Shown here: piece after piece, positions 1,218 to 10,942 of the stretch
Layout of the letters: the number at the start of each line of letters is the position of its first letter
How positions within the stretch are numbered: position 1 is the first letter of the stretch
DNA from: a virus
Length of the DNA stretch: 23,477 bases
Reading direction: 5' to 3' (one strand)
Virus record (IMG/VR): IMGVR_UViG_3300010883_014735
Location: 1 to 23,477 of that record
The notes under the pieces: generated by a model
Database searches by the model: none
Told to the model about the DNA's origin: nothing
What the model saw: the letters and a program-made list of their open reading frames with translations, nothing else
Position numbers and translations under genes: made by a program

Positions 1218-1881
1218 CTGCAAAAGCCTTTTCAAATTTGGTTCTGGATGCCAGACCTCTGTGGAACTTCATAAACCTGATCATTATGTTCGCCGTATCT
1301 TTAACGTCTTGTAAGGCGTCGTGAGCATTCTCGCTTGACAACCCCAAGTATTTCCGCATATTATCCATGCTGATCGATTTTATATCTGGGTCATTTTCTG
1401 TCCAGAGAAACATCATATCCATAACGTCTATCTTGTTGACTTTACTGAACAATTTTTGATGTCCAGTTTTTTCGTTTAGTGGACCGTATTGTTTACACAT
1501 ACGATCTACTATCACCATATCAAATCCAAGAATGTTGTATCCCGCTGGTATGGGCGCGTACCATTGGGTCTTTTTGAAATTAAATTTGTCAACAAATTTT
1601 GTGAATTTTTTCCAGACCTGTTTAGGATGTGGGGCTTTAGCTAACTCTTCTCGTGTTTTGTGTGTTATCTCAAGAGCTTCATCTTCTATGGGATCAAGAC
1701 CCTGCTTGATTGCCTCCTCGTCATCAAGAATTGGACGAATTTCACTGTTAAAAAATCCTCCGGGCTGTGGTGTCAGCTTCCTACCATGTATCGCAACCGC
1801 AGCTATTTGAGTTGGCTGTGTCTTGTTTGGATTGACAGATCCGGTTTCAAAATCAAAAACTATAATGTCTCGATAGTTCAT
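1198..1881 (-). CDS. DnaQ-like DEDDh 3'-5' exonuclease (proofreading)
   Basis: The 227-residue protein has the complete DEDDh exonuclease set: FDFETG supplies D10 and E12, GYNILGFD supplies D121, and AHDALQDVKD supplies H187 and D192. This family removes mismatched 3' nucleotides using two metal ions and is the epsilon proofreading subunit in bacteria. The gene lies between the two halves of the phage DNA polymerase III alpha, overlapping the upstream 71-aa gene by ATGA and the downstream polymerase half by 20 nt. Proofreading for that polymerase is therefore the obvious role. I see no clamp-binding motif that I can call with confidence. A more general DNA or RNA exonuclease (RNase T-like) is the alternative, but the context argues against it. 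Confidence 0.9.
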   Translation of the reverse strand: MNYRDIIVFDFETGSVNPNKTQPTQIAAVAIHGRKLTPQPGGFFNSEIRPILDDEEAIKQGLDPIEDEALEITHKTREELAKAPHPKQVWKKFTKFVDKFNFKKTQWYAPIPAGYNILGFDMVIVDRMCKQYGPLNEKTGHQKLFSKVNKIDVMDMMFLWTENDPDIKSISMDNMRKYLGLSSENAHDALQDVKDTANIMIRFMKFHRGLASRTKFEKAFADGNLYV

Positions 1882-2093
1882 GTCGCTATACCTTTAATTT
1901 CCAAAAATTTTTCAACTGCTGCACTTAGGTTTTTGTACAACATGCTGAATTTAAATTTCCTATTATCAGAATGTACTTGGTACAATTCTTTTTTAATAGC
2001 TCTATCATAATAATCGTTGATTTTACAAAGAGAAATATCCTTGTATTCTATGGCACATCCATCCAGAAGTACCTCGTTATAATGTTCCTTCAT
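1878..2093 (-). CDS. Unrecognised 71-aa protein between polymerase half and exonuclease
   Basis: This 71-residue protein is not recognised. It is rich in Lys, Tyr and acidic residues and looks soluble and mostly helical, with no membrane segment, no metal-binding cluster (two Cys, not paired) and no nucleotide-binding motif. It is real by context: its ATG overlaps the end of the polymerase N-terminal half by 17 nt, and its stop overlaps the exonuclease start as ATGA, so all four genes should be translated in a coupled way. Lying between the polymerase and the exonuclease, it could be an adaptor similar in role to the theta subunit, but nothing in the sequence proves this. It shows none of the conserved intein blocks, so it is not an intein remnant. 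Confidence 0.75.
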   Translation of the reverse strand: MKEHYNEVLLDGCAIEYKDISLCKINDYYDRAIKKELYQVHSDNRKFKFSMLYKNLSAAVEKFLEIKGIAT

Positions 2094-4011
2094 GTATATC
2101 TCCAGTTAAAAGTTGATCCCTAACACCCATGAGCTTATCTAATAAATTAACGCCTAGAACGTCAAACTTGACATGACCCATTGCCTCAAGGTCTGTCATT
2201 TCCAACCCTGCTATTTTCCCAGTCCCGTTGGTTTCTTTTACCATGGGGCATGATTTGTCTAGATCTTTAGAAGATATTACAACGCCAGCCGCATGTTTCC
2301 CCTGAGATTTATAGGTTCCTTCGAGCCTTATGGCTTGTTCGAACAGCTTAGAATAATTACCGCCCAGAGTGCCATCCTCTTTTAGTTCACAGTATCCCTT
2401 TAGAATCTCTGGTTGGTAAGCCAGAGTCCACATTATAGAGGAGGGGCTTTCCATAGACTCCAATTGATCAGATATTTTATCTTCTTGGGGCAATGCTTTT
2501 GTTATGGTGTTCATCTCGTCAAATGAACAGGCATCATGAACTCTGAGGACTTCCTTTAGAGCACTCCTGCCTTGCAGCCTTCCAAATGTTACCATCTGAC
2601 ACACGCGATCTTCCCCATATTTAGAGCGTATGTAGTCGATAACTTCGTCTCTTTTTGTTGCGGGAACATCCATGTCTATGTCCGGCAAGGAAACATGGTC
2701 TTCCGTATTCCTACCTATATTATAAAACCTCTCAAAAATCAAGTCATATTCGATAGGGTCTACTTCAGTGATGCCTATTAGGTATGAAATTAAACAACCC
2801 GCAGCGGAACCTCTACCGGGGCCAGCGAGCCAGTTGTTTTCTTTAACATAGTTTATAATATCTCTAACTATTAGGAAATATCCAGAGAGGTTGGCTTTTT
2901 GTATTACATCAAGCTCCTCTTTTATTCTGTCTACATATTTTTGAGTGTCTTCTTCTGTGTTAACTTTATCCTGAGCTTTTAATCTTTTACGCCAGCCATC
3001 TCGACAAAGGTCTCGAAGATATTCTTCTTCTGTCATATTGTTTGGGCAAGAAAATTTTGGAAGCATAGGCTGTCCAAGTATATCATAATTCTCACAAAAG
3101 CTAGCTATTATAGAAGAGTTACGAATTTCTTCTTCTGTGTGCAATGATTCCATTTCTTCTGACGAGGGAATGTGGTAGTTATTTGATCTAAAAAAGCAGG
3201 ACATTCCTACGTCTTCATTATTTCTTATCTTATTCTCTACTTTTTTTAGAGTTGTTTTCATGGCAGAACAAAGGAGTATTCTTTGGTCTGCCGCGTCTTC
3301 TTTTTTGGGGTAGTGTGAGTCTGCCGTTGCAACACAGGGTATTTTTGTTTCTGCTGCGACTTTTCTTAGGCACTCTGCTATAAGTTCAGACGCCGGAAAG
3401 TTGTCCTTATCTATAAGCTGTATCTCTATGAAAAAGTTTCCAGAGCCAAATACTTTTAGATGACTGTTCGCAGCAAAGACGCACTCTCTTTTCCAATCCT
3501 TTTTTAAGTACTTAGCTGCTTCGTCATAACTGTGAGCCGAATATGCCTTCTTAACATCTTGGAATAAAACATTGGCAAGATCGCTACCGGGATGTCCACT
3601 AAAAGATATTAGACTGCCCTTATCTTCACCTATGATTTCAGACAAAAGTCTTAGGTCTAGTCTAGGTTTAAAATAAAATACGTCTTCTTCGTTACTTCTA
3701 GATGTAGCTTCAATTAACTTATTCCAACCTGTTAAATTCTTAGCTAATACTACCAAGTGGGTTAGAGTTTTATTTTCTTTGGTTCTTAGCTTGGCATCTT
3801 TTGATATATAAAACTCGCATCCTAAAATTGGTTTTACATTCTTCTCTCGCATGCTCCTGACAAACGAAACGGCTCCAGAAATCGTGCCGTGATCTGTCAT
3901 CGCACAGGAGTCATAGCCAAGCTCCACGCAACGGTCTGCAACCTGTGGGGGCTTCGAGAGACCGTCCAACAGGCTATAATGAGTATGCAGATGTAGAGGA
4001 ATCCAAGTCAT
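2077..4011 (-). CDS. dnaE: DNA polymerase III alpha subunit, N-terminal half (split DnaE: PHP domain and palm)
   Basis: These 644 residues are the first half of a bacterial-type replicative polymerase. The PHP domain opens with HLHTHYSLLDG (H7, H9, D16) and continues with TDHG (H41), GCEFY (E66), H85, SGH (H140) and DSH (D231, H233), so all nine PHP metal ligands seem to be kept. The polymerase site follows: GPGRGSAAG at 397-405, PDIDMD at 443-448 (catalytic D446 and D448) and VKFDVLG at 614-620 (third catalytic Asp, D617). The protein stops 27 residues after that last Asp, whereas DnaE is normally about 1,100-1,200 residues. The fingers and the rest are encoded by a separate gene at 1-1217. 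The ATG lies one base after the stop of the upstream nuclease gene. I see no intein-like C-terminal extension. Confidence 0.95.
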   Translation of the reverse strand: MTWIPLHLHTHYSLLDGLSKPPQVADRCVELGYDSCAMTDHGTISGAVSFVRSMREKNVKPILGCEFYISKDAKLRTKENKTLTHLVVLAKNLTGWNKLIEATSRSNEEDVFYFKPRLDLRLLSEIIGEDKGSLISFSGHPGSDLANVLFQDVKKAYSAHSYDEAAKYLKKDWKRECVFAANSHLKVFGSGNFFIEIQLIDKDNFPASELIAECLRKVAAETKIPCVATADSHYPKKEDAADQRILLCSAMKTTLKKVENKIRNNEDVGMSCFFRSNNYHIPSSEEMESLHTEEEIRNSSIIASFCENYDILGQPMLPKFSCPNNMTEEEYLRDLCRDGWRKRLKAQDKVNTEEDTQKYVDRIKEELDVIQKANLSGYFLIVRDIINYVKENNWLAGPGRGSAAGCLISYLIGITEVDPIEYDLIFERFYNIGRNTEDHVSLPDIDMDVPATKRDEVIDYIRSKYGEDRVCQMVTFGRLQGRSALKEVLRVHDACSFDEMNTITKALPQEDKISDQLESMESPSSIMWTLAYQPEILKGYCELKEDGTLGGNYSKLFEQAIRLEGTYKSQGKHAAGVVISSKDLDKSCPMVKETNGTGKIAGLEMTDLEAMGHVKFDVLGVNLLDKLMGVRDQLLTGDIHEGTL

Positions 4012-4012
4012 T

Positions 4013-4543
4013 CTAAAGTCCTAGCTGGTCAAGATTCTTGTACGGCAAGTTGTAACAATCGGTTAACACCTTCCATCCGTTTGAGGGGTCTACGTCACCC
4101 TTTGCATAGAAGGTCGCTTGTTTAAAATACTCTGTTGAATTTTTTTGTCCGCATATCCAAGCTTTAACTGGTTTGTCACCACGAAATTGAATACTTACAA
4201 ACACATAGAAGTCTGGGTTTTGATGTAGGCTGGTATGGGCAACGCTAGCATCATAAAAATCTTTAGGGGGAACTGTCCTACGCTTGGTTTTTATCTCTAT
4301 AGTTTTGTTCCCAAGCACCAAGTCGTGATTATATTTTTCTTCACCTCTTTTATTGCTAACTATTTTCGCGCCAATATACTCAGCAACAATTGATTCCCCT
4401 AAGTAGCCAGCAAAATTTCCTTTTCCTTTTAGAATAGAATTTTTTATTTCTCCCAATCTTTTTGCCTTGCCTTTTGCAGACTTCACCATCGCTTCGGTGA
4501 AGGGGGCTTCAACAATGTTACTTCGTTCTGTTGAATTTTTCAT
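4013..4543 (-). CDS. PD-(D/E)XK-type nuclease, function unknown
   Basis: The 176-residue protein carries the spaced signature of a PD-(D/E)XK restriction-like fold: a helix with GES (E50), HDLVLG (D74) and then TIEIKTK (E83, K85). Nothing outside that core is recognised. The fold is used by restriction enzymes, resolvases and phage end-processing nucleases, so the substrate cannot be assigned. The gene sits between a putative dehydrogenase and the split polymerase, one base before the polymerase start, which favours a role in replication or repair. A longer version starting at a TTG at 4564, with GAGG just upstream, is possible. I preferred the ATG at 4543 although no good ribosome site precedes it, so the start is uncertain. 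Confidence 0.68.
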   Translation of the reverse strand: MKNSTERSNIVEAPFTEAMVKSAKGKAKRLGEIKNSILKGKGNFAGYLGESIVAEYIGAKIVSNKRGEEKYNHDLVLGNKTIEIKTKRRTVPPKDFYDASVAHTSLHQNPDFYVFVSIQFRGDKPVKAWICGQKNSTEYFKQATFYAKGDVDPSNGWKVLTDCYNLPYKNLDQLGL

Positions 4544-5450
4544 AAATATATCGTGCTGCTGCAACGTCCTCTATAGCTAGTCCTGTGGCATCGAATAGTG
4601 TTGTTAGAGCGCCGTCCATCTCCACTCTCCCCTGAACTATCTCTGCTAGCGGCGACCATATCTGTGAGATTTTACTTTTCTTAGCGTATTGTATCTCCCC
4701 AGAGTGGGAACACTGAACCCACTCATCGTAGGAAACTAGGTCTACATTGTCAAGGACGCATGGGTGCAATTCTCTTTTTCCTTCTGCGTCAGCACCAACA
4801 GCATTAATGTGGACTACGGGTTTTAGATCCTCGTACTTTATGAAGGGCTTTCTGGAAGGCGTTAGAGTTGTAACTATGTCAGAATCCCACAGACAATCTT
4901 CCAGTGTTTTACAAACTTCTACCTTGATAGGCTCTGGTAAATAGTCAAGACTGTCCTTTACTGCGTTGGCTCTATCTTCGCTAAGATCAAAGAGCTTTAT
5001 AGTTTTTATATCTCTGACAGCCAACACCGCCTGAATTTGGCGAAGGGTTTGATGTCCACACCCTATAAATGCTGCCGTTCTGGAATAAGTACGGGATAGA
5101 TACCTTGTGGCGACCCCCGTCACAGCAGCCGTTCTAATAGCGGTAAGAGTTTCTGCATCTAGAACAGCTAGCAGATCTCCAGTTTCGATATCGTTGATCA
5201 TCACCATAGCAAAGATGTTGATCTTGCCCGCCTCCTTGACACTGAGTCCGGCCCATTTGATTCCTGCCGTGTTGCCTACTACTGCTGGCATTGCCCGAAA
5301 GTCCCCGCTTGGAACATTCATGTATACCTTTGGCGGCATTTGTGTGTCGTCAATGTTTTTAAATAGGTCTTCTACAAGCTCTATACAAGCTGGTACTGAA
5401 AGTAAGTCTGCCACTTCGTCGTTGCTAAAATGTTTAACCGGGAGCATCAT
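4518..5450 (-). CDS. Ornithine cyclodeaminase/mu-crystallin family NAD-dependent enzyme
   Basis: At 310 residues this matches the full length of the family, whose members include ornithine cyclodeaminase (ornithine to proline plus ammonia), archaeal alanine dehydrogenase, ketimine reductase and SbnB-type siderophore enzymes. Visible family elements are FRAMPA (R52), GIKWAG (K65, the likely catalytic Lys), AIRTAA (R106), a Rossmann motif IGCGHQ at 129-134, GADAEGKREL (D221, the likely general base) and FDATGLAIEDVA near the C-terminus. No active-site residue that I can place is missing, so the enzyme looks functional, but the sequence does not tell which substrate it uses. It overlaps the upstream Cas4-like nuclease by 17 nt and extends into the start of the next nuclease gene. 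It is a metabolic enzyme embedded in a replication operon, probably taken from a cellular genome. Confidence 0.9.
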   Translation of the reverse strand: MMLPVKHFSNDEVADLLSVPACIELVEDLFKNIDDTQMPPKVYMNVPSGDFRAMPAVVGNTAGIKWAGLSVKEAGKINIFAMVMINDIETGDLLAVLDAETLTAIRTAAVTGVATRYLSRTYSRTAAFIGCGHQTLRQIQAVLAVRDIKTIKLFDLSEDRANAVKDSLDYLPEPIKVEVCKTLEDCLWDSDIVTTLTPSRKPFIKYEDLKPVVHINAVGADAEGKRELHPCVLDNVDLVSYDEWVQCSHSGEIQYAKKSKISQIWSPLAEIVQGRVEMDGALTTLFDATGLAIEDVAAARYIYEKFNRTK

Positions 5451-6444
5451 AATACCCTATATTAAAACCTTGTTTAGTACACTCTGCGGTAGTCCTTTCT
5501 AGACCCTTATTTTCCAGCTCCTTATGGACATGCTTACAAATATTGGTGTTGGTTCCTTCCCAATTATTTTTGTAGTATGCACATAGTTTTTTACATTTCC
5601 AGTGTGCTTGTTCTTGAGATAGCATCCTAGGAGATTCGTTTGCTTTTATTTCTTCAAACCTATTCTTAAGCATCTCCAAAAATTTATCTCTATCAGATTT
5701 ATCAAAGCATAGTGAAAATGGACCTCCATCTCTGATATAAAAAATTGACATTATTGACTGACTATATTCTGGAAAAAGCTTTGAGATCGCGTAGTTATAA
5801 AGAAGGAGTTGTGGGTCTTGGGAAAGTTTTTCATAGTCCTTTTCTTGACCCGTAGCCCAGTCTATTCTTCTTCCAGTCTTCCAGTCTACGACCTCTATAA
5901 CATCTTCGGAAGATTCAGTAACCAAGTCTATGGTCCCCTTGATGGCAAGGTTTCCAGAGATTGTCTCACCACTTGGAAGCTCGTAGTCATACTTGGCCCA
6001 AGGCTCGTTGATCTCGATGTCAAAATGAGGTTCAGCGGCTACTATTTTTCTTTTTCTTGGGTCAAATTGTCCCTTGTTGTATTCTAGAGCGAGCCATACC
6101 CACTTTTGACAGTTAGACAAATCTCCTTTTGTAAAAGCGTGCGAGCTTCTATCTGTATAAAATTCAATGCTTTTGTCTGTAAGATTATTTACAAAGTTCT
6201 CTGATAGCATTATATCTTTTGTTAGACGAATTCTTCCCAACGATTCGTCTGTGAAGCTCTTTTTTTTATTCTGTAATGCGTATTTTGATCGCGCAAGACA
6301 CTCCATAACCTTATGTACAATGGTCCCCATCTCCGCCTTCTTTCCAGAAAGAGAGGGGTGTCCCAAAACATAATTAATATAATATTGCTGTTGACAATAA
6401 TCATAATTATTATATGAAGAGCTTCTTACATATGTAACTATCAT
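5434..6444 (-). CDS. Cas4/RecB-like PD-(D/E)XK exonuclease, possible iron-sulfur protein
   Basis: The 336-residue protein shows the RecB-nuclease order of motifs: an N-terminal SSSYNNYDYC, GTIVHKVME (H44), E138, GTIDLV (D173), EVVDWKTG (D187, K189) and QLLLY (Q212 to Y216). Relatives are Cas4, AddB/RecB nuclease domains and many phage exonucleases that degrade or trim DNA ends. One Cys near the start (C17) and three near the end (C284, C288, C303) resemble the four-cysteine iron-sulfur staple of Cas4 and AddB, but the spacing of the last three is looser than the classic form, so cluster binding is only a possibility. There is no CRISPR array or other cas gene here, so recombination or DNA-end processing is likelier than CRISPR adaptation. 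Confidence 0.85.
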   Translation of the reverse strand: MIVTYVRSSSYNNYDYCQQQYYINYVLGHPSLSGKKAEMGTIVHKVMECLARSKYALQNKKKSFTDESLGRIRLTKDIMLSENFVNNLTDKSIEFYTDRSSHAFTKGDLSNCQKWVWLALEYNKGQFDPRKRKIVAAEPHFDIEINEPWAKYDYELPSGETISGNLAIKGTIDLVTESSEDVIEVVDWKTGRRIDWATGQEKDYEKLSQDPQLLLYNYAISKLFPEYSQSIMSIFYIRDGGPFSLCFDKSDRDKFLEMLKNRFEEIKANESPRMLSQEQAHWKCKKLCAYYKNNWEGTNTNICKHVHKELENKGLERTTAECTKQGFNIGYYDAPG

Positions 6445-6474: not shown

Positions 6475-6816
6475 TTAATCTCTATCATATTTATCCTCCA
6501 TTCTTATGATGTCGTCTTCTTCGCACTTCCCATACTGCATTTCATAGATGACTAAATCAGTATCTCCAGTGTTAATAAGCTGATGGTTGTCATTCACGTT
6601 TATTTCTACAGTGAATCCCTGCTTGACTTTCCACTTGGTAACATTATTCCATCTGAAATATCCAAATCCTTCTGCCACATACCAAAACTCACTCCTTTTA
6701 GAATGCCTTTGGTACGATATTTCTTCGCCGGGACTTATCACTATCCTTTTGAAGACCACCTCATCAGACCTAAATATATCTTCATAGAAACCCCAAGGTT
6801 TTATTACATCGCCCAT
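6475..6816 (-). CDS. Small cupin, mannose-6-phosphate isomerase type II-like
   Basis: The 113 residues form one cupin barrel resembling the C-terminal isomerase domain of bifunctional mannose-6-phosphate isomerase/GDP-mannose pyrophosphorylase. It starts KPWGFYEDI, then KRIVISPGEEISYQRH (metal ligand H38), RSEFWYVAEG (E43) and DNHQ (H78). The guanylyltransferase half is absent. In bacteria this fold isomerises sugar phosphates, but lone cupins of this kind may have other substrates, so sugar metabolism is a family-based guess. The gene begins directly after the deoxynucleotide kinase stop and is followed by a 30-nt gap before the nuclease gene. No sugar-nucleotide genes are nearby to confirm a pathway. 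Confidence 0.8.
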   Translation of the reverse strand: MGDVIKPWGFYEDIFRSDEVVFKRIVISPGEEISYQRHSKRSEFWYVAEGFGYFRWNNVTKWKVKQGFTVEINVNDNHQLINTGDTDLVIYEMQYGKCEEDDIIRMEDKYDRD

Positions 6817-7611
6817 TTAACGATCCTCTTTTATCCTCATTGTAAACCCAACAGGCTCCGCAGATTGAACCCACCCCCAGCCAACCAACACCTCTAACAG
6901 TTTCTTATTGCATTCCTCTATCGTCATATCAGAATTATCAATCACATAATCAAATTCATCATAGCCTTCTAGATCATTTTCGCTTGAGTGACTGTCGTCA
7001 TTGGGCCTTCTCAGTAGTCTGACGACCTTACCCCCAGCTTCATGTACGGCATCGACTTCATTTCTGAATCTACAATCACCTATTATAGCAAGCTCGCTTT
7101 CATCATCTATGATGTGATCTATACAGATCGAAGTCCAAATATCTGATTTTATTTGTCTGCAAATATCCGTTCCAAAAAATTGCAGGAATTCTCTGGCGGT
7201 CGTTGTGCCTGATTTGTGTTCTGGTGATAGATTTTCCCACATAATGTTTGTGTGGGTGTTCTTTTCTTGATCAGTGCCGTAACATTGTTTGTGTGTGAGT
7301 CCAAACAGGCTCATGCAAACCCCTTTTAGCGGGGTGGCAAAATTGTAAGCCCTGATGAAAGGCCATATCCTTTGTGATGCGTATGAGGCAAACTCAAAAT
7401 CATCCCTTTCTACATCAAGGACACCCATACCCTCTGAGGCCCCTCCTCTTTCATCAGTAGTGACGGCATTTACAACCAAGTTTCCATTCTCATTTATTTC
7501 AAAAATCTTTATGGCTTCAGTTCTTTTCATCTCATAGCCGTGAAGAAAATTAACCCTAGTAGTTTTTCCACTCTGCTTAGATCCTGAAAACGCCAGTATT
7601 TTCTGAGTCAT
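6817..7611 (-). CDS. Deoxynucleoside monophosphate kinase
   Basis: The 264-residue protein has a P-loop GSKQSGKT at 10-17, a FLQFFGTDICRQ segment at 142-153 and IIGDCRFRNEVD at 177-188. Together these are typical of phage deoxynucleoside monophosphate kinases related to T4 gene 1, which phosphorylate dNMPs to dNDPs with ATP. It complements the dCMP deaminase, dUTPase and ribonucleotide reductase encoded upstream. An insertion at about residues 30-75, between the P-loop and the core, is not recognised. The ATG follows a 30-nt gap after the iron-sulfur carrier gene, one of the longest gaps in the region. The stop abuts the cupin ATG. Confidence 0.85.
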   Translation of the reverse strand: MTQKILAFSGSKQSGKTTRVNFLHGYEMKRTEAIKIFEINENGNLVVNAVTTDERGGASEGMGVLDVERDDFEFASYASQRIWPFIRAYNFATPLKGVCMSLFGLTHKQCYGTDQEKNTHTNIMWENLSPEHKSGTTTAREFLQFFGTDICRQIKSDIWTSICIDHIIDDESELAIIGDCRFRNEVDAVHEAGGKVVRLLRRPNDDSHSSENDLEGYDEFDYVIDNSDMTIEECNKKLLEVLVGWGWVQSAEPVGFTMRIKEDR

Positions 7612-7641: not shown

Positions 7642-7977
7642 CTAGACGCTGAAGCTCTCACCGCATCCACAACTGCTAGAAGCGTTTGGGTTATTAAAAG
7701 AGAATCCACGTTTCGACAAGTCTTCTATCCAGTCAATGGTAGTGCCGTCGATAAATAATTCGGCCTTCTTTTCTACGATTAGAGCTAGGCCACCCTGCTC
7801 GTATTTATTGTGGGTTTTGTCTGAATACTCTGATAGTTCTACAAAACCTAGTTTATATTCAAAGCCAGAACATCCCCCACCCGCAACGGCAACCCTAAGT
7901 AGACTATTAGTAGCATCGGGCAAGTCTTCCATAACCCGTTTAATTTCTTTGACTGCCTTATCGGTTAGTGTTACCAT
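7642..7977 (-). CDS. A-type iron-sulfur cluster carrier (HesB/IscA/ErpA family)
   Basis: At 111 residues this is a full-length A-type carrier. The three invariant cysteines are present: C36 in GGGCSGFEY and C103 and C105 in the C-terminal CGCGESF. These proteins bind a [2Fe-2S] or [4Fe-4S] cluster or iron and hand it to apo-enzymes. Its ATG overlaps the primase stop as TAATG, so it is co-translated with the replication genes. Within this window the plausible client is the Cas4-like nuclease at 5434-6444, which has a candidate four-cysteine set, though host proteins are equally possible. No scaffold (IscU) or desulfurase gene is present, so it must plug into host iron-sulfur assembly. Confidence 0.93.
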   Translation of the reverse strand: MVTLTDKAVKEIKRVMEDLPDATNSLLRVAVAGGGCSGFEYKLGFVELSEYSDKTHNKYEQGGLALIVEKKAELFIDGTTIDWIEDLSKRGFSFNNPNASSSCGCGESFSV

Positions 7978-9035
7978 TATATAAGACCTTGTAGTTGAGG
8001 ATTTAGTATCTGCTGTATCTCAGAAACGCTCATGTCACCCACGTCTTTGTGTGGGGTTATGTCTGGAGTATATATATTAAAAAGTCTTTCACACTGGGTT
8101 TTTATCCTCGCAGACGCATCTCTTCCCGCTTCATCGCTATCGGTTAAAATTATGAGATTCAACGCCCCAGACCTCTCTAATATTATACGCTGATAATCAC
8201 TCAAATAGCAACCAAACATTCCAACAGAATTCCTAATACCGGCTTCATGAAGACGCCACACGTCTCCCTGACCCTCCACCACTACCACGCTGCTGGTTTC
8301 TTCGATGAATTCCTTGGCGTTCCAGTAGTTATATAGGAAGTCACCCGTGTTAAGACCCTTGCTATTAACCCATTTATGAGTCAAGGGCTTCTCCTCCAGT
8401 GATCTCCCAATGCACCCAGTCATGTAGGCGTGACTGTCATCATACACCGGAACAACAATTCTATTATACATAGGTTTTGATGGGTCTTTGCAGATTCCCA
8501 CATCAAAAAAGTCTAAAGTTGACTGGTTAAATCCTTTGTTCAAATAGTATTCGACGGGCCTACACAATCCCGCCACAACCATCGCCCTAGTCGCGACCTT
8601 GTTTGCTTCCTTTTTTTGTTTAAATATGCTATTTGCACACCTTATAAAGTTTGACTTATCTTTTTGAGATTCGTCTACTTTTATGTCATCGGGGGAGAAG
8701 TTCAAAAATTTAAATCCAAATGAAACGGCTTGGGGGAATCCTACTTCCTCACCTCTCTCTCTAGAGAGGATACCTCGTAGTAACCCCAAAACAGAATTGA
8801 TGTATTCTTTTTCACAATGGTGGGTCCAGCAAGACCATACTATTTGGTTTGGAAAAATGTCTGATTGTCGGATGCTAAACCCATCCTTTTTGTCTCCGTC
8901 ATGCACAGGACAGGGACAGTATATCCACTCGTCCTGTTCGGTATATTCAATATTGAAGTGGTCCAGTATATCAATGATTCTTTCAGATAACTTCTCAGAG
9001 AGAACGCTGATCTTTTCTTTTTCAAATTTCTGCAT
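7977..9035 (-). CDS. DnaG-like DNA primase with zinc-binding and TOPRIM domains
   Basis: The 352-residue protein has an N-terminal CHC2-type zinc site (C40, C42, H45, then C69 and C74), a central NRIVVPVYDD and CIGR segment typical of DnaG, and a TOPRIM domain with VVVVEGQGD (E254) and LTDSDEAGRD (D299, D301). It makes RNA primers on single-stranded DNA. It is clearly shorter than cellular DnaG (about 580-650 residues) and lacks a recognisable C-terminal helicase-binding domain, so contact with the helicase must differ. The ATG comes six bases after the helicase stop, consistent with a helicase-primase pair made together. Confidence 0.92.
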   Translation of the reverse strand: MQKFEKEKISVLSEKLSERIIDILDHFNIEYTEQDEWIYCPCPVHDGDKKDGFSIRQSDIFPNQIVWSCWTHHCEKEYINSVLGLLRGILSRERGEEVGFPQAVSFGFKFLNFSPDDIKVDESQKDKSNFIRCANSIFKQKKEANKVATRAMVVAGLCRPVEYYLNKGFNQSTLDFFDVGICKDPSKPMYNRIVVPVYDDSHAYMTGCIGRSLEEKPLTHKWVNSKGLNTGDFLYNYWNAKEFIEETSSVVVVEGQGDVWRLHEAGIRNSVGMFGCYLSDYQRIILERSGALNLIILTDSDEAGRDASARIKTQCERLFNIYTPDITPHKDVGDMSVSEIQQILNPQLQGLI

Positions 9036-9041
9036 TAAGTT

Positions 9042-10502
9042 TTACATTTCAAATGGAATATCGTTTTTATTGTTATCCTCTACAACAAATCCTTCATCTT
9101 TTTGTTTAACGACTTTTCTTATTTCATTGCGTGTACACTTCTCAACAATGTTGGCGGTCTCGCCCTTCATAGCCATGCTTATATAGTCTCTGTCGGAAAG
9201 TCCGGGGCCATGTCTGGCAACGATTGGGACCAGCTTTTTGTTTCCATACTCATCGCCATCCTCTGCAATCTCTTCATCACTCTTATTCTTAAAAATACTA
9301 AAACTGGTGCATAACCATATCAGTCGGTCTGAGCCACTGACAACATCCGTAGATTCTTTGGTTATACCATCTCTGTTTAGCTGCACAAAACTTAGGCATG
9401 GACAATCGTATTCAACACAAAAGTTATGAAGTGCGGTTATCTGAAAACCAAGAGCCTGAAACTCCTGAACGCTATTGTTGATCGTGTCGGAGGTCATCAA
9501 TTTCAAGTAGTCGTAAATTATCAAGCAGTTATTTGTTCTGCCGTTCTCATCAAAGCCAACCGTTTGTATAATCCATCTTCTCATCAGAGAAAGTATTTCA
9601 TCGAAAGGCTTTCCAGATATGCTGATATAATCATATGGTATTTCTTCTATCTTTCTGGCTGACCTCTCAATTTTTTCTTTATTTGTCTGGCTACTAAAAC
9701 ACTTTCCTGTAGAGATATCATTTATATCTATGCCACTTAATTTAGCAAGTATTCTGTTGAGATGATCCTCTTTTGACATCTCGGTGTCCAGCATCAGGAC
9801 CGGTATGTTCAACTCGCCTGCTACATGCATCGCAACATTATCGCCAAACATGCTTTTACCAACCTTGGGACGAGCGGCGATTAAGTCAACACACTTTCTT
9901 CTGAGTCCTCCCCCGATACTAATGTCATACCGACTGTATCCGCTGGGTATGCCCAGTATGTCTGATGGATTTTCCTCTAGGTGTTTGATGTATTCTTCAA
10001 TGTCTTTACCCAATGGTAACGGAGTACTGTCTTCTTCTCTGTTTAGATTGGAAGAAAAGTCTAATATAGGCTTCTCCGCAATATTTATTATTTCACTTAT
10101 ACTCTCGTCACCATCAATTGTTGATATGTTATTGTATATTTCTTTAGATAGCTTTTGTATATCTCTTGCAAGCTGTAGTTTACGAATTTTTACTGCGTGC
10201 GGCCTAACATTTTCTAGCTTGATCGGAAAATGATATACCGCACGAAGATGTTCAAGACCACTCTTGCTGTTTAAGTTGTCCTGAAAATCAAGATCATTGG
10301 CGGCGGCTAGTATTGAGGATATATCTACAGAGTCAGATTTTTCAAGCACTTTACAAAGACACTTGTAAATTATCTGATTTTCTTCGATAACAAAAGTATC
10401 AAATTCAACTACCCCGCCTATGTCTATAAAAGCGCTGGCTCCATGTGAACAAACTCCTGAAAGAACCGCTCGTTCAGCCGCTGAGTTATGTAATAGATTC
10501 AC
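9042..10502 (-). CDS. DnaB-like replicative DNA helicase
   Basis: From a GTG at 10502 the protein is 486 residues and begins MNLLHNSAAERAVLSG, the usual DnaB N-terminus. The RecA-type core has Walker A ARPKVGKS at 210-217, DTEMS at 239-243, Walker B LIIYDYLKL (D331) and an arginine-containing RHGPG near 435-440. It should form the hexameric ring that unwinds DNA ahead of the split polymerase and works with the primase encoded six bases downstream. A TTG at 10523 would add seven residues but would overlap the previous gene by 19 nt. The GTG lies two bases after that gene's stop and gives the canonical family start, so I prefer it. The C-terminal tail is acidic and ends DIPFEM, like a protein-interaction tail. 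Confidence 0.92.
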   Translation of the reverse strand: MNLLHNSAAERAVLSGVCSHGASAFIDIGGVVEFDTFVIEENQIIYKCLCKVLEKSDSVDISSILAAANDLDFQDNLNSKSGLEHLRAVYHFPIKLENVRPHAVKIRKLQLARDIQKLSKEIYNNISTIDGDESISEIINIAEKPILDFSSNLNREEDSTPLPLGKDIEEYIKHLEENPSDILGIPSGYSRYDISIGGGLRRKCVDLIAARPKVGKSMFGDNVAMHVAGELNIPVLMLDTEMSKEDHLNRILAKLSGIDINDISTGKCFSSQTNKEKIERSARKIEEIPYDYISISGKPFDEILSLMRRWIIQTVGFDENGRTNNCLIIYDYLKLMTSDTINNSVQEFQALGFQITALHNFCVEYDCPCLSFVQLNRDGITKESTDVVSGSDRLIWLCTSFSIFKNKSDEEIAEDGDEYGNKKLVPIVARHGPGLSDRDYISMAMKGETANIVEKCTRNEIRKVVKQKDEGFVVEDNNKNDIPFEM

Positions 10503-10504
10503 TT

Positions 10505-10942
10505 TTATCTTCTTGTTATGCAATTATCGCACTTGTAATTTTCGCGAACTAATGTGGGATGGATCTCAAAATTCTTATTGCACGAAACACATGTGGTAGA
10601 AATTCTCTTGAATATCCTTCTGGTTCTTTCGACGGGAGGTTTAACCGCCAGTTTTTTATCCACAGCCGTGTCTTCCGAGGCTTCGGTCCCATCATCAACA
10701 AAGGTGTTCTCTCGATCTGTGATATCTAAAGGTTCTGATCTGGCTATCCTACTTTTCCCGCTAGTCTCCGACGATCTGGTTGAGGTTATAAAACTATCTC
10801 CCGCGTCTTCCTTCTCTGTTTCAACCACCTCTTGTTCATCTTCTGCGATGACTTTTTCTCCAGTCAGATCTTCAAACCCCTCAGAGACAAGGATCATATT
10901 ATTTTTCTGTATGCCAGACTTTATCTTGTCTATAGGATTCAT
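10505..10942 (-). CDS. Acidic linker protein with C-terminal zinc ribbon, upstream of the helicase
   Basis: The 145-residue protein is not recognised as a family. Residues 30-100 are acidic, Ser/Thr-rich and probably disordered. The C-terminus is a compact zinc-ribbon candidate with CVSC (C118, C121) and CDNC (C138, C141), preceded by a basic RTRRIFKR. It overlaps the upstream gene by ATGA and stops two bases before the helicase GTG. Position and build (flexible acidic arm plus nucleic-acid-binding ribbon) suggest a helicase loader or single-strand-binding accessory, but this is inference from context. The Cys spacing (C-x2-C, x16, C-x2-C) is visible directly. Confidence 0.75.
   Translation of the reverse strand: MNPIDKIKSGIQKNNMILVSEGFEDLTGEKVIAEDEQEVVETEKEDAGDSFITSTRSSETSGKSRIARSEPLDITDRENTFVDDGTEASEDTAVDKKLAVKPPVERTRRIFKRISTTCVSCNKNFEIHPTLVRENYKCDNCITRR

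Follow-up and report, generated by a model that had tools for sequence, protein, structure and literature searches.

The window analysed here is the whole of a virus record of 23,477 bases (IMG/VR record IMGVR_UViG_3300010883_014735). Its minus strand carries a long operon with replication and nucleotide functions, encoding in this order a DnaB-type helicase (9042-10523), a Toprim primase (7977-9035), a deoxynucleoside monophosphate kinase (6817-7611), a PD-(D/E)XK nuclease (PF12705; 5434-6444), a member of the ornithine cyclodeaminase (OCD)/mu-crystallin family (4518-5450), a 183-residue open reading frame (ORF; 4013-4564), the N-terminal part of DNA polymerase III alpha (PHP and NTPase domain; 2077-4011) and a DnaQ-like exonuclease (PF00929; 1198-1881). 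A cupin/mannose-6-phosphate isomerase C-terminal type protein is encoded on the same strand at 6475-6816. The replication, nucleotide and cupin genes were assigned by Pfam, with E=2.2e-19 for the nuclease and additional PHROGs evidence for the kinase.

The gene at 4518-5450 starts with ATG, is free of internal stops and encodes 310 residues, bearing out its first-pass annotation as a complete gene of this family lying within the replication operon of a phage. It shares 17 bases with the upstream nuclease gene and 47 with the downstream ORF as called from TTG (26 if that ORF begins at the in-frame ATG at 4543), so that it does overlap both neighbours, as had been noted. The GC content over 4501-5500 is 0.449, close to the top of the within-window range of 0.364-0.452. 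The earlier placement between two nuclease genes is secure for the upstream side; for the downstream 183-residue protein Pfam gives nothing at E<=0.01, and it may be PD-(D/E)XK-like as judged by eye. The possibility, raised beforehand, that the contig is chimeric at this point is ruled out, since two other contigs carry the identical sequence and others preserve the gene order.

Two further features of the operon may be recorded. DNA polymerase III alpha is apparently split, since the 644-residue ORF at 2077-4011 has a counterpart of 557 residues (L001:10216-11889, off the left end of the window) that appears to be the putative C-terminal part, with a 71-residue ORF and the DnaQ-like exonuclease between the two. 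At 7642-7977 the phage encodes an A-type iron-sulphur carrier protein (PF01521; PHROG 17776, function unknown), the gene for which is also present in some relatives (L009) and was not seen at the same place in others.

Family, fold and active-site residues

The window protein belongs to the OCD/mu-crystallin family, matching PF02423 (OCD_Mu_crystall) over residues 11-308 of 310 with E=6.8e-70 and 236 bits, against a gathering score of 24. Its best NCBIfam model is that of archaeal alanine dehydrogenase (AlaDH; TIGR02371) at 199 bits, followed by a model at 157 bits, and TIGR02371 is also the top model in all eight further viral copies scanned (174-234 bits). None of the viral copies scanned, the window's included, reaches the curated equivalog cut-off of 409 bits, and the assignment to alanine is for this reason not one by equivalog. 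The OCD equivalog PRK07589 gives 137.7 bits, which is below both its own cut-off of 350 and the AlaDH score.

The closest solved structure by sequence is the AlaDH of A. fulgidus (AF1665; 1omo/1vll, E 8.6e-52). An AlphaFold2 model built from a 22-row alignment (pLDDT 88, pTM 0.89; a poor model from 10 rows, pLDDT 68, was set aside) likewise has this enzyme as its top structural match, with Z-scores of 37.6 (1vll) and 37.4 (1omo), an rmsd of 2.3-2.4 Å over 301 residues and 34-35% identity in a full-length structural alignment. Iminosuccinate reductase (BhcD, 6rqa; Z 36.6), pyrroline-2-carboxylate reductase (6t3e; 36.2), mu-crystallin (2i99; 35.9) and P. putida OCD (1x7d; 34.2) follow. The small spread of Z-scores across the family structures, from 37.6 to 31.3, establishes the fold and not the substrate.

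The residues lining the active site are more discriminating. According to PMC3497308 and PMC3840593, the carboxylate of ornithine is held by Arg45, Lys69 and Arg112 of P. putida OCD, while Asp228 binds its α-amine and Glu56 its δ-amine. This numbering was moved by spacing and motifs, a transfer of our own, to the Ti-plasmid Ocd, the gene of which adjoins arginase. Alignment through Ocd places Lys41 and Arg52 of the window protein at the positions of Arg45 and Glu56, and Lys65, Arg106 and Asp221 at those of Lys69, Arg112 and Asp228; a further difference from OCD is Thr289 in place of Val. The full set of catalytic residues claimed at first is thus present as far as the shared family residues are concerned, and it is incomplete for the two ornithine-specific ones, to which the loss of substrate residues, foreseen as an objection, is confined.

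The same five residues are found in A. fulgidus AlaDH and in all seven other AlaDH-like sequences aligned, a set of eight with 1omo as the sole one named as tested. At 27 positions these eight are distinct from four annotated OCDs; the window protein is AlaDH-like at 20 of these and OCD-like at two, with 18-20 and two or three, respectively, in five other viral sequences. Extended to Lys41-Arg52-Lys65-Arg106-Asp221-His249-Thr289, a pattern shared with A. fulgidus AlaDH, the signature is invariant in a 10-row viral alignment and, without exception, in 24 further viral copies of full length, and the partial copy L289 keeps its first four residues. Since the loci were detected through the patterns QMPPK or GADAEGK, the conservation of Lys41 and Asp221 is partly selected for; that of Arg52, Lys65, Arg106, His249 and Thr289 is not.

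Other members of the family depart from this arrangement. The pyrroline-2-carboxylate reductase 6t3e shares Lys65 and Arg106 with the viral protein, but Asp221, present in every full-length viral copy checked, is Val in it and Ser in human mu-crystallin, so the viral enzyme keeps the base needed for amino-acid oxidation. BhcD shares Asp221 and, unlike the viral protein, has (in the plasmid-encoded form) Tyr at the position of Arg52 and Val at that of Lys41. From archaeal AlaDH itself the window protein differs in the RTGAAGG helix, which reads RTAAVTG with the Ala-Gly pair replaced by Val-Thr (110-111), as in SbnB, and in Glu294, which is Gln in AlaDH and Glu in OCD. An aspartate after strand 2 of a Rossmann fold favours NAD over NADP, and Asp155 at this position of the model suggests NAD as the cofactor. 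Taken together, profile, residues and fold indicate that the protein is probably not an ornithine cyclodeaminase, and point to an AlaDH-type, predicted NAD-dependent amino-acid dehydrogenase.

A viral clade found at several genomic positions

A maximum-likelihood tree of 58 sequences is split by one branch, with support of 100/99, into 28 distinct viral and 30 cellular sequences, and in all 200 bootstrap trees the viral group corresponds to a single change. This tree omits 16 of 74 sequences, including all of the canonical OCDs (four OCDs, BhcD, EutC, SbnB, two OCD-family sequences, L230 and six near-copies), because long-branched sequences had fallen among the viral ones with weak support. 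In the earlier 74-row tree the four annotated OCDs were placed, on a branch of 2.2, among the viral sequences beside L290-L292 (91/47), a position that we read as a probable long-branch effect. The position of L290-L292 is the least certain, since the long-branch warning linking them to cellular sequences persists in the 58-row tree.

The viral clade is separate from the AlaDH-like cellular sequences, and the trees resolve no sister group. The nearest cellular matches found are 43% (G173, from the phylum of the Omnitrophota record L038), 40% (from the phylum of the Myxococcota record L046) and 39% (Archaeoglobus) identical. They come from a genome scan with short patterns and from group searches of 193 and 195 genomes in two phyla, a thin sampling, so that nearer cellular kin may exist. 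Within this sampling we conclude that the viral proteins form a putatively virus-specific clade.

When IMG/VR was scanned with the protein, ten loci came back, 70-100% identical, and in each the gene immediately follows that for the nuclease. Two of them (L001 and L002) match the window exactly and could stem from linked samples; the remaining eight differ from it. When the nuclease alignment was used instead, 148 relatives were found and 80 kept, of which 13 have the gene directly after the nuclease, answering the proposed survey of viral genomes for this neighbourhood; the other 67 have the next replication gene, other genes or the contig end there. This division marks the post-nuclease slot as a site of accessory-gene turnover, in which the enzyme gene is confined to one set of phages. 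Pairwise dN/dS values of 0.046-0.117, computable for eight of 28 pairs (dS is saturated in the rest), indicate that the gene is under purifying selection. Together with its recurrence in the same position, this upholds the earlier view of a selected gene rather than a passenger.

The history of the gene differs from that of its surroundings. The backbone genes of the window have their nearest counterparts in L009 (DnaB 89%, primase 86%, nuclease 91%, polymerase III 88% and exonuclease 93% identity) and are distant from those of L004 (DnaB 66%, primase 49%, nuclease 65% and polymerase III 64%), whereas the enzyme is nearer to that of L004 (83-85%) than to that of L009 (71%). The simplest reading is that the enzyme gene may have been replaced by recombination between phage sublineages.

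A wider scan, for which the alignment was enlarged by two more distant viral copies, found the enzyme at 37 viral loci, which represent no fewer than six distinct gene neighbourhoods. The replication slot after the nuclease accounts for 13 loci. Twelve belong to a second neighbourhood with an ORF directly upstream in 11 (L275 starts with the enzyme), which is of GDP-mannose-dehydratase type in six: L276 according to Pfam, and L268, L269, L272, L273 and L274 by eye. In five loci the gene lies among glycosyltransferase- and UDP-glucose-dehydrogenase-like genes, in two between class II ribonucleotide reductase and dUTPase, in one beside phoH and in one (G023) at the end of an arginine/lysine cassette; three are of other kinds. 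Both G023 (L088) and the contig of L284 (L113) have the nuclease-kinase backbone of the window with the enzyme elsewhere, and this phage type thus holds it at three different places. Among 42 nuclease-kinase-type records outside the lineage of the window, a whole-record alignment search that did not include L113 found the enzyme only in G023. The gene has the marks of a phage auxiliary metabolic gene: it is metabolic in kind, its neighbours are phage genes, and it is both conserved and under selection in the genomes of phages.

Near the enzyme in L280 (8514-12018) are genes for a malate/L-lactate dehydrogenase (PF02615), a class I fructose-bisphosphate aldolase and a saccharopine-dehydrogenase-like protein; aldolase and saccharopine-dehydrogenase-like genes also precede the enzyme in G023. 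In INPHARED, tblastn with the protein found nine Enterococcus, Listeria, Staphylococcus and faecal records, with identities of 28-32% and no close kin among them, and by eye several of them look like bacterial sequence filed as phage; the nuclease had no match in INPHARED. A Tat-signal DUF1501 protein, odd for a phage, is encoded in G004 (L015:13791-15032, Pfam), and genes resembling DUF1501 follow the nuclease in L084 and L095 (by eye); a Planctomycetes host would be a guess from these genes.

The arginine/lysine cassette

Downstream of the enzyme, three relatives of the window (G004, G007 and G008) carry genes for VOC, aldehyde dehydrogenase (ALDH), arginine-dihydrolase-like, lysine-6-transaminase-like and UDP-glucose-dehydrogenase-like proteins, in this order, extended by a saccharopine-dehydrogenase-like gene in G004 and G008. 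Three genes separate the enzyme from the cassette in G007 and G008, and two in G004. At L004, L007 and L008 the metabolic cassette comes after a 71-residue ORF matching window positions 1878-2093, where the window has the exonuclease directly. The arginine-dihydrolase-like protein matches Synechocystis ArgZ (E 5.4e-60), with 254 bits against a cut-off of 450, and keeps an Asn that is Ser in one ArgZ entry; the lysine-6-transaminase-like protein reaches 484 bits against a cut-off of 520.8. From these likenesses, the viral VOC-ALDH-dihydrolase-transaminase cassette looks like one for arginine/lysine breakdown.

The cassette is present, with varying completeness, in 17 viral loci (L125-L141; for example L017:11510-17411 in G004) of several phage backgrounds, and the other 63 (L142-L204) of this separate set of 80 kept viral loci have an arginine-dihydrolase/dimethylargininase-like gene without the rest of the cassette nearby. 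INPHARED holds distant dihydrolase-like genes in Campylobacter and Bacteroides phages, annotated as amidinotransferase or hypothetical, and a closer one (34%) in the Xanthomonas phage phiXF1. The most direct connection is the operon of G023, in which VOC, ALDH, arginine-dihydrolase-like, lysine-6-transaminase-like, a 141-residue protein, class I aldolase and saccharopine-dehydrogenase-like genes are followed by the enzyme as the last gene. Overall, co-occurrence is weak. An arginine-dihydrolase-like gene is found in five of the 37 enzyme records (the G007/G008 near-copies among them) versus two of 41 enzyme-free related-phage records, the latter being the 42 related-phage records minus G023, which has both, and most of the records being fragments; conversely, four of the 16 cassette records searched have the enzyme. 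On the counts of five and two the enzyme is not tied to the cassette, and the link is kept as a lead.

Predicted function and significance

The reading that we prefer, with a probability of roughly 0.5, is that the gene represents a virus-specific clade of AlaDH-type NAD(H)-dependent amino-acid dehydrogenases, acting most likely on alanine/pyruvate as the product of an auxiliary metabolic gene. Alanine metabolism was among the options named at first, and is now the one best supported by profile, structure and residues. The enzyme would catalyse the reversible reaction of an L-amino acid, NAD+ and water to a 2-oxo acid, ammonium and NADH, with Asp221 acting as the base that accepts the α-amino proton, Lys65 and Arg106 holding the carboxylate together with Lys41 and Arg52, and Asp155 disposing it to NAD. 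Co-expressed with the replication genes, it might in the forward direction convert host alanine to ammonia and NADH, feeding nucleotide synthesis, or in the reverse direction fix ammonia onto pyruvate and recycle NAD+. Counting against this reading are the TIGR02371 cut-off that no scanned copy reaches, the departures from AlaDH at 110-111 and 294, the small spread of Z-scores and the thin cellular sampling. In addition, only one AlaDH-type member, that of A. fulgidus, is named as tested, the cellular relatives in the tree being untested enzymes, and the neighbourhoods vary between phages and point to no single pathway.

The substrate of an AlaDH-type dehydrogenase could also be a different one, for example a compound whose additional carboxylate would be bound by Arg52 (aspartate/iminosuccinate, glutamate or 2-aminoadipate), perhaps in the last step of arginine/lysine breakdown. 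The arginine that stands in place of the glutamate binding the positive side chain of ornithine, the terminal position of the enzyme in the G023 operon and the third rank of iminosuccinate reductase in the structure list speak for this alternative. Arg52 is, however, equally present in A. fulgidus AlaDH, the substrate of which has no second carboxylate, BhcD itself has Tyr there and the association with the dihydrolase-like gene is not clear, which makes it the less probable reading. A cyclic-imine (ketimine) reductase of the mu-crystallin/pyrroline-2-carboxylate reductase type would be compatible with the common fold, and PMC4113996 describes such activity in many members of the family, but both aligned representatives lack the aspartate that the viral copies keep, making this proposal unlikely.

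True ornithine cyclodeamination, converting ornithine to proline either alone or after a phage arginine dihydrolase, was an earlier suggestion. Family membership, the conserved counterparts of Lys69, Arg112 and Asp228 and the arginine-dihydrolase-like gene in five of 37 records would fit it, and the rule for Arg45 and Glu56 is not absolute, as the OCD of A. rhizogenes is reported to differ at both positions (PMC3840593). Nevertheless, the δ-amine ligand of the account taken from PMC3497308 is Arg in all of the full-length viral copies checked, the separating positions and both profile scores disfavour OCD, and the viral protein lies at a large distance from annotated OCDs whose genes adjoin arginase or CtlX. 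With the best profile and structure both those of alanine dehydrogenase, ornithine-to-proline conversion is unsupported and quite improbable, and the suggested production of an unusual amino acid finds no direct support. That the gene is a passenger or an assembly artefact with no role in the phage, a view favoured solely by the gene's absence beside the nuclease in 67 of 80 loci, is largely refuted by purifying selection, the conserved signature, recurrence in several positions and lineages and the matching contigs, and retains only a very slight probability.

A broader and decidedly tentative picture is that this dedicated viral family of amino-acid dehydrogenases circulates among uncultured phages as an ammonia/NADH valve in DNA replication. 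In some phages it might be the last enzyme of an arginine/lysine breakdown operon with arginine-dihydrolase-, lysine-transaminase- and aldehyde-dehydrogenase-like members, through which the virus itself would break nitrogen-rich amino acids down to ammonia, to glutamate or aminoadipate, and to alanine.

Metabolic genes are nothing new in phages, and auxiliary metabolic genes are in themselves a familiar kind; an AlaDH-type enzyme with what appears to be its own viral clade was not found reported earlier. PHROGs gave no match at E 0.001 for three copies scanned (those of the window, G023 and L290), and BFVD, a single library, gave two matches under E 0.001, both partial and neither of the OCD/mu-crystallin family. 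No report of this family in phages was found among the open-licence PMC papers searched, where absence is weak evidence. The main text of a paper on ocean auxiliary metabolic genes (PMC11360552) contains none of the terms 'ornithine', 'cyclodeaminase', 'alanine dehydrogenase' and 'lysine', and a truncated OCD-like ORF (V10) is tabulated with other ORFs homologous to haloarchaeal genes in PMC2194725.

Because the protein is small and the assays are cheap, the enzyme is easy to test. 'Ornithine cyclodeaminase', the label that databases would give, can mislead in viral annotation, the active site being AlaDH-like. That uncultured phages of several kinds encode a version of the enzyme of their own suggests that they may steer host nitrogen and redox metabolism while DNA is being copied; if the enzyme is active, amino-acid nitrogen and NAD redox balance would join the host functions under phage control.
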